Of a stretch of DNA of 64,000 nt, positions 2,461 through 63,846 are shown piece after piece. The notes beneath the pieces were generated by a model. That model saw only the letters and a program-made list of their open reading frames with translations. It was not told where the DNA came from and did not search any database. The stretch comes from Rufibacter roseus (lineage in GTDB: Bacteria; Bacteroidota; Bacteroidia; Cytophagales; Hymenobacteraceae). Numbering within the stretch: the stretch's first letter is position 1; each line of letters opens with the position of its first letter. The position numbers were made by a program, and so were the translations under genes. Where the stretch lies: NCBI RefSeq assembly GCF_001647285.1, contig NZ_LRML01000004.1, positions 372,001-436,000 of the forward strand, read 5' to 3'.

Positions 2461-2502
2461 GCAGATTCTCCCCTTGAGGGGAGCGTAGAGGGGTGTTTAC
2501 AC
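2461..2502 (+). repeat. Left inverted repeat of the DUF559 element
   Basis: 42 bp; starts GCAGATTCTCC, has the palindrome CTCCCCTTGAGGGGAG and ends GTGTTTACAC. One mismatch to the reverse complement of 2932-2973. It lies 24 bp past the DUF559 stop codon. Confidence 0.9.
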
Positions 2503-2526
2503 AGGAGAGCAAACATTTCTGCTCCT

Positions 2527-2901
2527 TCACTTTTGCTGGATCTTATACTCTTCCACCCAGTGAAGAATCTCATCCAACACCCAAGATATTCTTCTCTTAA
2601 CATCGATGTCTTCAAATCTAATAATTCTTACTCCATACGCCTTCAACGCTTCTTCTCTGTTTGTATCATACTCAACCTTTTCATTGTGGCTGTCTCCGTC
2701 TACCTCAATAGCTAGTCCTATTTCATGGCTGTAGAAATCAACAATGAAATTGAGCATAGGCACTTGTCGGTGGAATTGCACTCCGAGCTTTCTGTCCTTT
2801 ATCTCTTCCCAAAGCAGAACTTCAGAGAGTGTGCTATTTTTACGAAGTTGTCTTGCTTTCTCACGTAAGTCTGGCCGGTATGGGATAATTCTGTTTGGCA
2901 T
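2527..2901 (-). CDS. DUF559 domain protein (Vsr/PD-(D/E)xK-like endonuclease fold)
   Basis: A 124-residue protein of the DUF559 (COG2852) family, related to very-short-patch-repair endonucleases. The family signature is present: the N-terminal LR...ST.SE..LW segment, QFHRQVP around residues 42-48, then D55 and E66-V-D68-G, which fit the acidic residues of a PD-(D/E)xK-type core. The start at 2901 (MPNRIIPY) is usual for the family. Function is unproven; nicking or cutting of DNA is inferred from the fold. The gene fills almost the whole space between the 42-bp inverted repeats, so it may act on them. Confidence 0.88.
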   Translation of the reverse strand: MPNRIIPYRPDLREKARQLRKNSTLSEVLLWEEIKDRKLGVQFHRQVPMLNFIVDFYSHEIGLAIEVDGDSHNEKVEYDTNREEALKAYGVRIIRFEDIDVKRRISWVLDEILHWVEEYKIQQK

Positions 2902-2931
2902 TCCTATATCTACGGAATCGTGGACCGGCAG

Positions 2932-2973
2932 GTGTAAACACCCCTCTTCGCTCCCCTCAAGGGGAGAATCTGC
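2932..2973 (-). repeat. Right inverted repeat of the DUF559 element
   Basis: 42 bp, inverted copy of 2461-2502 with one mismatch. The neighbouring inner sequence CGTGGACC (2918-2925) is also found beside the related repeat at 63678-63717, so homology runs past the repeat itself. Confidence 0.9.
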
Positions 2974-3007: not shown

Positions 3008-3064
3008 AAACAGAAACAGAGAAGCCCCACCAGTTAAACTGGTGGGGCTTCTCTGTTTCTGTTT
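3008..3064. terminator. Very long bidirectional terminator hairpin
   Basis: A 28-bp perfect stem (3008-3035 with 3037-3064), core GCCCCACCAGTT, flanked by A and T runs. It lies downstream of folB (minus strand) and, but for the DUF559 element, of the PBP1A gene (plus strand). It probably ends transcription from both sides. Confidence 0.85.
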
Positions 3065-63608: not shown

Positions 63609-63677
63609 AAGGACGGTTGCTGATATGAGTGTTGCTAAGAACAAAAAGGGAAACTTCAGCAATGCGTGGACCTACAG

Positions 63678-63717
63678 GTGTAAACATCCCCCCTCGCCCC
63701 TTCAAAGGGGGAGTATC
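63678..63717 (-). repeat. Diverged copy of the DUF559-element repeat
   Basis: GTGTAAACATCCCCCCTCG and CCCTTCAAAGGGGG, in the same direction as 2932-2973. The adjacent CGTGGACC at 63665-63672 is shared with that site, so more than the repeat is homologous. Confidence 0.75.
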
Positions 63718-63767
63718 AGAAAGGTACGGAAGTAAATCCATGCCATAGAAAGTTAACGATTGAAGAA

Positions 63768-63810
63768 GCGGATTCTCCCCTTGAGGGGAGATAAAGAGGG
63801 GTGTTTACAC
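63768..63810 (+). repeat. Copy of the DUF559-element repeat
   Basis: GCGGATTCTCCCCTTGAGGG ... AGAGGGGTGTTTACAC, close to 2461-2502. No DUF559 gene is next to it. With 63678-63717 the orientation is opposite to that in the 2461-2973 element. Confidence 0.85.
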
Positions 63811-63846
63811 CTGCAGAAGAACCAGCTTAGGGTGCTCTCTTGTGTA

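Follow-up and report, generated by a model that had tools for sequence, protein, structure and literature searches.

A DUF559 nuclease gene between inverted REP-like hairpins as a putative minimal mobile element

Near the start of a 64,000-nucleotide stretch of the Rufibacter roseus genome (hereafter the window), a small DUF559 gene is enclosed by two near-perfect inverted repeats, raising the question of whether repeats and gene together form a mobile unit. The initial annotation described 42-bp repeats around a DUF559 gene and proposed a minimal mobile element or a REP/RAYT-like partnership with a nuclease in place of the transposase. The repeat core (2461-2502 against 2932-2973) was found to align at 98%, and the full arms extend over 46 nt each (2457-2502 and 2932-2977), inverted, 96% complementary and separated by 429 nt. 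The open reading frame between them, 2527-2901 on the minus strand, encodes 124 aa and matches Pfam DUF559 (E 3.3e-28). The related gene-less repeats noticed 60 kb away were located within a further repeat cluster at 63665-63814. The features are as follows.

2386-2406, no strand: fragment like the arm's outer end (GCAGATTCTCC), an 86% direct repeat and possible remnant
2457-2502, no strand: left REP-like arm, hairpin CTCCCC-TTGA-GGGGAG with tail CGTAGAGGGGTGTTTACAC and inner AGGAG; the gene's downstream end
2527-2901, minus strand: DUF559 (EDxHD/Vsr-like) nuclease gene, 124 aa
2932-2977, no strand: right REP-like arm, inverted copy with inner CTGC; the gene's upstream end
63665-63717, no strand: repeat copy without a gene, diverged type
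63768-63814, no strand: type-A repeat copy without a gene

The element and its sites in the genus and beyond

The outer end reads GCAGATT. Each arm carries the CTCCCC-TTGA-GGGGAG hairpin and, on the side facing the gene, a short spacer and GAGGGGTGTTTACAC; the spacer varies among copies (CGAA, CGTA, CGCA or ATAAA). Seven type-A genes of the genus are two-armed (L010, L024, L028, L033, L034, L036 and L044); inner CTGC lies upstream of the gene in all seven and inner AGGAG downstream in six, with AGGGG in L044. The same two inner ends, CTGC at one side and AGGAG at the other, were present in 5/5 gene-less pairs read in the window's genome (L003-L007). Because the inner bases of the two arms differ consistently, the unit is an element with a defined left and right end. 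The folding of single arms was not significantly more stable than that of shuffled controls (z -1.4 and -1.0 in the two window arms, -0.8 in L011), and the evidence for the hairpins is positional, not energetic. Rfam returned 0 families at gathering score in nine loci.

The 513-bp stretch gave 56 matches in its own genome (5.1 Mb, 39 contigs), nearly all of them to the arms. In the five gene-less pairs the arm starts are 99-137 nt apart, and one arm of L007 is of variant type. Two more DUF559 genes are present in this genome: L011, a second repeat-bounded element with a palindrome variant, and L009, with a repeat pair downstream only. At 3008-3064 of the window lies a perfect 28-bp inverted repeat, probably a bidirectional terminator between two convergent genes.

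Judging from translations, the window element sits between a penicillin-binding protein (PBP) gene and folB, whose protein is present in all 16 genomes of the genus that were compared. Empty sites in relatives, which the initial annotation had suggested looking for, took the form of a polymorphic site: the gene is present in 2/16 genomes (G000, and G007 in the opposite orientation) and a gene-less pair in 2/16 (type-A in G014, with a variant palindrome in G001). Inverted pairs of other families occur there in G002, G003, G004, G006 and G011, and also in G005 and G009; G008 has degenerate pieces, G013 a single piece of another family and G010 a small two-gene insert, and nothing recognisable was found at the site in G012 and G015. 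The space between PBP and folB forms a hot spot for repeats. Its second inverted-pair family, GTAGGGGCAATCCCTTGTGGTTGCCC, was seen in five genomes (G002 L066, G006 L068, G004 L070, G003 L071 and G011 L074), a pair similar to this family is nested in the gene-less type-A pair of G014 (L072), and a third family, ACTCGCCAGAGGCGAG, lies there in G009 (L069) and G005 (L073). The two-gene insert of G010 (L077) reads, from its translations, like a HigB/HigA toxin-antitoxin pair.

Alleles with and without the gene occur at further loci. At pdxJ-era in another genus (eight genomes, genes named from translations), the order repeat pair, DUF559, repeat pair was found in G041, G115 and G312 and a single repeat pair in G053, G069 and G084 (degenerate in G084); no repeat pair was found there in G080, and in G313 the two flanks are split between contigs. 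The single pairs of G053 and G069 each show traits of the left and of the right flanking pair, and the best reading is therefore that the gene was lost when these two pairs recombined. In Sinorhizobium, an intact DUF559 gene lies upstream of smc in three strains, and S. meliloti Ak57 (about 96% identical, with DsbA-family and SMC genes annotated) has an internal deletion reaching from the DUF559 gene into a hairpin. The gene-less alleles at pdxJ-era and in Ak57 are better read as gene losses, and the case for a mobile element is softened to the extent that some gene-less alleles resemble such losses, not pre-insertion states. One Shinella has a different gene-less hairpin pair at the dsbA-smc site. 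A 2.3-kb Sinorhizobium query gave partial matches at no fewer than 558 places in 117 plasmid records; among the matches listed, those below the first seven cover the repeat only. Neither a pre-insertion allele alignable to the base nor a target-site duplication was found at the window site, metH, pdxJ-era or the Sinorhizobium dsbA-smc site.

Repeat types, nuclease subfamilies and their generality

DUF559 gave 36 matches in the genus, one to four per genome in 15 of the 16 genomes, and its subfamilies are accompanied by distinct repeat types.

Type I: CTCCCCTTGAGGGGAG (or CCCCCTTTGAAGGGGG), with genus DUF559 subfamily I
Type II: TCCCCTCCT-x-GGAGGGG with AGGGGTGGGT, with genus DUF559 subfamily II
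Type III: CCTTCTCCCTGAGGGAGAAGG, with genus DUF559 subfamily III
Type IV: CCCCTCTCC..GGAGAGGGG, with genus DUF559 subfamily IV
Type V: CCCCCTTTGAAGGGGG with TAGGGGGATGA, with genus DUF559 subfamily V, mostly on one side only
Type VI: CCCCTCCTAAT..AGGAGGGG, with genus DUF559 subfamily VI

Co-divergence of repeats and subfamilies, a further point put forward at the outset, was borne out by Mantel tests of arm against protein similarity (r 0.59 for 34 genus loci; r 0.24 for 75 phylum-sample loci), the value being reached in 0/2000 permutations in each case. One type-III copy (L026, G010:C140) is interrupted by a single in-frame stop.

Type-A copies were counted as the exact pattern on both strands with a spacer of 4-5 nt. 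The pattern occurs in 15/16 genus genomes (0-41 copies) and a backward-read control pattern in 0/16. Genomes with a type-I DUF559 gene of the type-A group contain 10 (G000), 6 (G001), 18 (G002), 3 (G003), 13 (G007), 41 (G008), 7 (G010), 11 (G011), 13 (G014) and 24 (G015) copies, and those lacking one contain 2 (G004), 8 (G005), 21 (G006), 6 (G009), 17 (G012) and 0 (G013), the last having a variant palindrome. Across the 16 genomes, repeat copy number showed no clear dependence on the presence of the type-I gene, which is evidence against tight gene-repeat coupling, and the persistence of type-A repeats in genomes without the matching subfamily likewise softens the case. The type-I gene of G003, G010 and G011 has no full repeat pair in an ungapped test, its hairpin arms numbering one or none. 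In G006, 18 of the 21 type-A repeats share the CGCA spacer though type-I DUF559 is absent, as if a recently active copy had since been lost.

To ask how general the arrangement is, C-rich hairpins (stem of at least 7 bp, loop of 2-10, 5' arm pyrimidine- and C-rich) were counted within 250 nt of DUF559 genes in four samples, leaving out 15 loci with short flanks. The genus sample comprised all 36 matches. The phylum sample comprised 90 of 150 Bacteroidota matches from 148 genomes, 60 of the 90 being picked from a ranked list. The named sample was a non-random choice, the best 80 of 580 confirmed DUF559 loci in GTDB genomes, and its query was built from already inspected phylum loci, several of them adjoining repeats or embedded. 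The Alphaproteobacteria, the class of a Brevundimonas MAG, contributed 29 loci from 142 genomes. The only locus common to two samples is L081, which matches L118 without a difference along 1.3 kb; L118 comes from Candidatus Kapabacteria, a group that GTDB assigns to Bacteroidota, and the phylum name of the sample rests on this identity.

Hairpins were found on any side, and on both sides, of 35 and 19 of 36 genus loci, 75 and 49 of 87 in Bacteroidota, 54 and 41 of 68 in the named sample and 29 and 19 of 29 in Alphaproteobacteria. Pooled, these give 193 and 128 of 220 (192 and 127 of 219 minus the shared locus), so that DUF559 genes elsewhere are repeat-flanked far above controls. At a distance of 940-1200 nt the counts fell to 12 and 0 of 204, and the mirror-image hairpin with a G-rich 5' arm occurred near 11 and 0 of 220. 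Around Y1_Tnp genes of the 148-genome panel (27 usable of 30) the counts were three and one; in that panel the hairpin class therefore goes with DUF559, not with Y1 genes. The remaining 27/220 DUF559 domains had no such hairpin within 250 nt. Orientation with the tail gene-ward is a tendency only (140 in, 88 out, 31 both, 60 none).

According to record titles, the named sample covers Bacteroidota, Anaerolineae and other Chloroflexi, Cyanobacteria, several Proteobacteria, Planctomycetes, Myxococcota, Kiritimatiellae, Nitrospirae, Ignavibacteria, Kapabacteria, Cloacimonadota and others. Phage records yielded two distant DUF559 matches and plasmid records 30; the regions inspected from this search were those of Sinorhizobium, Synechocystis, Picosynechococcus, Sphingomonas and Shinella. 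On a Synechocystis plasmid (L391), a short gene annotated as DUF1156 precedes a DUF559 gene that has C-rich hairpins. The RIME/IRU repeats of Rhizobiales and Caulobacter may be members of the DUF559 repeat class; the literature searched yielded no sequence for comparison.

The nuclease and its residence in host proteins

Twelve residues are invariant in 53 aligned sequences (E27, W31, F43, R45, Q46, D55, F56, E66, G69, H72, D79 and R95); of these, E27, D55, E66, H72 and D79 are candidates for the catalytic residues that give the EDxHD group its name. The AlphaFold2 model of the window protein (mean pLDDT 88.8) was matched best by Foldseek to PDB 3hrl (E 5.2e-7), an endonuclease-like protein of Neisseria gonorrhoeae that is itself a DUF559 protein and is structurally closest to the model. 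The next match was the homing endonuclease I-Bth0305I (3r3p, E 2.7e-5, TM 0.56/0.67), which a sequence profile also reaches (E 7.5e-5); the Vsr structure 1vsr matched weakly (E 0.12). In the window protein, Pfam detected DUF559 and a weak MTES_1575, and a Y1 domain was not found. The best PADLOC match, a weak one at E 8.6e-4, was the profile of a type II restriction enzyme of the methyl-directed kind. The nuclease is under purifying selection: dN/dS was usable in four pairs, at 0.04-0.08 for three pairs at pdxJ-era and 0.19 for the metH pair with the least divergence, while dS was saturated in two further metH pairs, and pN was below pS in 55/55 pairs of the type-I clade.

The attribution to the EDxHD group is not new, because PMC9403480, where it treats genes that contain inteins, already assigns a Thermosynechococcus DUF559 gene to the family of EDxHD homing endonucleases; EDxHD enzymes are described in PMC3943268. 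Caulobacter VsrA, another DUF559 protein, has been tied to a DNA-damage response and proposed to be a Vsr-type repair enzyme (PMC12907096). Titles and abstract openings in the literature gave no link of DUF559 to REP-type repeats and no account of DUF559 inside host enzymes; subscription papers lay mostly outside this search, and an earlier description may exist elsewhere.

At 40 of 235 loci (genus 3/36, Bacteroidota 20/90, named 17/80, Alphaproteobacteria 0/29) the DUF559 domain is embedded, its frame continuing for at least 130 residues on both sides. A Pfam scan covered 36 of these 40 frames (leaving out L013, L014, L169 and L295) and found another protein family in the same frame in 36/36. 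Host domains lie on both sides of DUF559 in 26 of the scanned frames, in two stretches, one without a printed position, in four (L111, L145, L148 and L154), and on one side only in six (L079, L090, L107, L116, L176 and L270). The hosts include methionine synthase, with three different insert positions, leucyl-tRNA synthetase (with the insert within or behind the editing domain), valyl-tRNA synthetase, RecG, UvrC and an HrpA-like helicase, as well as type I restriction R and M subunits, type ISP, Eco57I-like and MmeI-like enzymes, N6/N4 methylase, a DUF1156 protein, an M23 peptidase and an HMGL-like enzyme. In the 36 fused proteins, Pfam detected no Hint splicing domain (E up to 1e-5). In Planktothrix (L176) DUF559 is in frame with a DUF1156 domain, and in an alphaproteobacterial MAG (L189) a DUF559 gene with hairpins reads as apparently in frame in a PriA-like helicase.

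Of the 16 methionine synthase (metH) genes of the genus, three (G008, G010 and G013) are occupied, and the other 13 have a short linker at this point and are empty; two more phylum-sample genomes (L093 and L098) have the insert between the same two domains. The hairpins are translated as linkers such as PHPQPLSHGEG and SPRERGQGGE. Between G010 and G013, similarity in 100-nt windows is 93-97% along the later portion of the insert and 75-93% in the host gene, and the synonymous difference of the nuclease (pS 0.18) is below that of the upstream host part (0.43). Comparison with G008 gave the reverse pattern, insert windows being 54-77% and host windows 63-91% alike. Repeated arrival at one metH site would yield this divergence pattern, which is only suggestive.

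A FastTree phylogeny of 234 domains, each of about 107 residues and so meant to give only a broad picture, required 16 changes between embedded and free states (33-40 in 100 label shuffles). Host state among 31 embedded copies in eight recurrent hosts required 13 changes (shuffles 16-22, minimum 7); the labels of L013 and L014 were taken from translations and that of L169 from its likeness to L149. These change counts therefore indicate that embedded copies cluster and partly keep to their host gene, yet switch hosts.

Proposed mechanism, rival explanations and known systems

Taken together, we consider it probable that the window holds a minimal mobile element composed of two inverted REP-type hairpins and one DUF559 homing-type nuclease gene. 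The proposal of a minimal element or REP/RAYT-like partnership is thus supported by flanking, polymorphism and co-divergence, from which we infer movement and cleavage; homing is the preferred but unproven mechanism. The nuclease would recognise its cognate hairpin, be it extruded, single-stranded or a palindromic duplex, and would nick or cut at the hairpin or at an unoccupied target, after which host repair would copy the element into the break in homing fashion. The gene-less pairs, which are REPIN-like, may have arisen from full elements by deletion and be mobilised in trans, and the gene would be removed when repeats recombine, leaving a repeat footprint. In-frame copies between or within domains may be tolerated because the palindromes are stop-free and yield Pro/Gly/Ser-rich linkers, so a housekeeping protein could be made with the element included in its chain. 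Against this explanation stands that neither movement, nor cleavage, nor a clean pre-insertion junction was observed at the loci studied.

The same element might work by another chemistry, RAYT-style single-strand transposition in which DUF559 processes hairpin ends on one strand, a proposal that overlaps with ours in all but this step. A likeness to REPINs is seen in the hairpin ends, in the inverted pairs and in the gene-less forms present in many copies (REPIN/RAYT papers PMC3116915 and PMC2817692), but Pfam finds DUF559 and no Y1 domain, and the nearest structures to the model are those of a DUF559 protein and a homing endonuclease. Hydrolytic nucleases of the DUF559 kind have no known strand-transfer chemistry. 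We regard this route as unlikely. We think it quite unlikely that the element is a relic, once mobile and now immobile, with the nuclease domesticated (for example for defence or mismatch repair) and the repeats serving only as terminators or mRNA hairpins. Purifying selection, the weak PADLOC similarity (E 8.6e-4) and the pdxJ-era site, common to three species with losses in others, would fit such a history, whereas relatives differ in hosts, positions and orientations and genomes hold many identical short repeat copies, which suggests activity in the recent past.

That DUF559 serves the host in repair or defence and lies by chance in repeat-rich intergenic space, with another enzyme (e.g. 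a RAYT) moving the repeats, is highly unlikely in our judgement. The link of VsrA to a DNA-damage response (PMC12907096), repeats in genomes without the cognate gene and six Y1_Tnp matches in the window's genome speak for it. Yet in the same 148-genome panel C-rich hairpins flank 1/27 Y1_Tnp genes on both sides against 49/87 DUF559 genes, the repeat type tracks the DUF559 subfamily, and repeats and gene occur together inside protein-coding genes.

Beyond the homing-type element favoured here, a wider reading can be proposed tentatively, which we hold to be slightly less likely than not. DUF559 proteins may be the dedicated enzymes of a second great REP class, with C-rich/G-rich hairpins, parallel to RAYTs and GTAG-REPs, and one lineage may be a protein-level parasite, an unspliced in-frame homing nuclease that resides within essential enzymes (MetH, LeuRS, RecG and others) and hops from one host gene to another. 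If true, a domain of unknown function would gain a role, a common class of bacterial hairpin repeats would gain its missing enzyme, and essential proteins could carry mobile nuclease genes without introns or inteins. The model is directly testable, because it predicts the repeat cut by each nuclease.

Among known systems, REP/REPIN-RAYT is alike in having one small gene between REP hairpins in inverted orientation, gene-less inverted pairs in many copies and a family-specific pairing of gene and repeat. It differs in its enzyme, RAYT being an HUH Y1 transposase and the present one a DUF559 nuclease, and in that DUF559 elements are frequently in frame in large proteins. No constant GTAG, the tag of RAYT-associated REPs (PMC3733652), was found in the aligned DUF559 arms. 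The same paper describes REP families, in-frame Rickettsia palindromic elements (RPEs) and REPs in repair genes, and CGTC-tagged REPs are there said to be without a dedicated transposase, which is why a link of the latter to alphaproteobacterial DUF559 was tested. RPEs share with DUF559 elements the palindromes in frame within coding genes; unlike RPEs and CGTC-REPs, the DUF559 in-frame insert carries a nuclease and its hairpins are C-rich/G-rich. With TCATTGCG taken as the CGTC-type motif, CGTC-REPs were rejected as DUF559 partners, the motif lying within 300 nt of only 1/29 alphaproteobacterial DUF559 genes.

The EDxHD homing endonucleases are alike in the fold and sequence of the catalytic domain, as seen for I-Bth0305I (3r3p; structure E 2.7e-5, profile E 7.5e-5), and in the existence of occupied and unoccupied alleles. 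They differ in that the window protein, at 124 aa, has no counterpart to the extended DNA-binding region that PMC3943268 describes in I-Bth0305I, in that no intron or intein was seen around the DUF559 gene, and in that the DUF559 element is bounded by REP hairpins and has gene-less REP-pair derivatives. Inteins, finally, likewise add an in-frame nuclease domain to conserved proteins, and do so at sites common to distant relatives; no Hint domain was found by Pfam in the 36 fused proteins (E 1e-5), and the DUF559 insert, unlike an intein, is expected to stay in the mature host protein.
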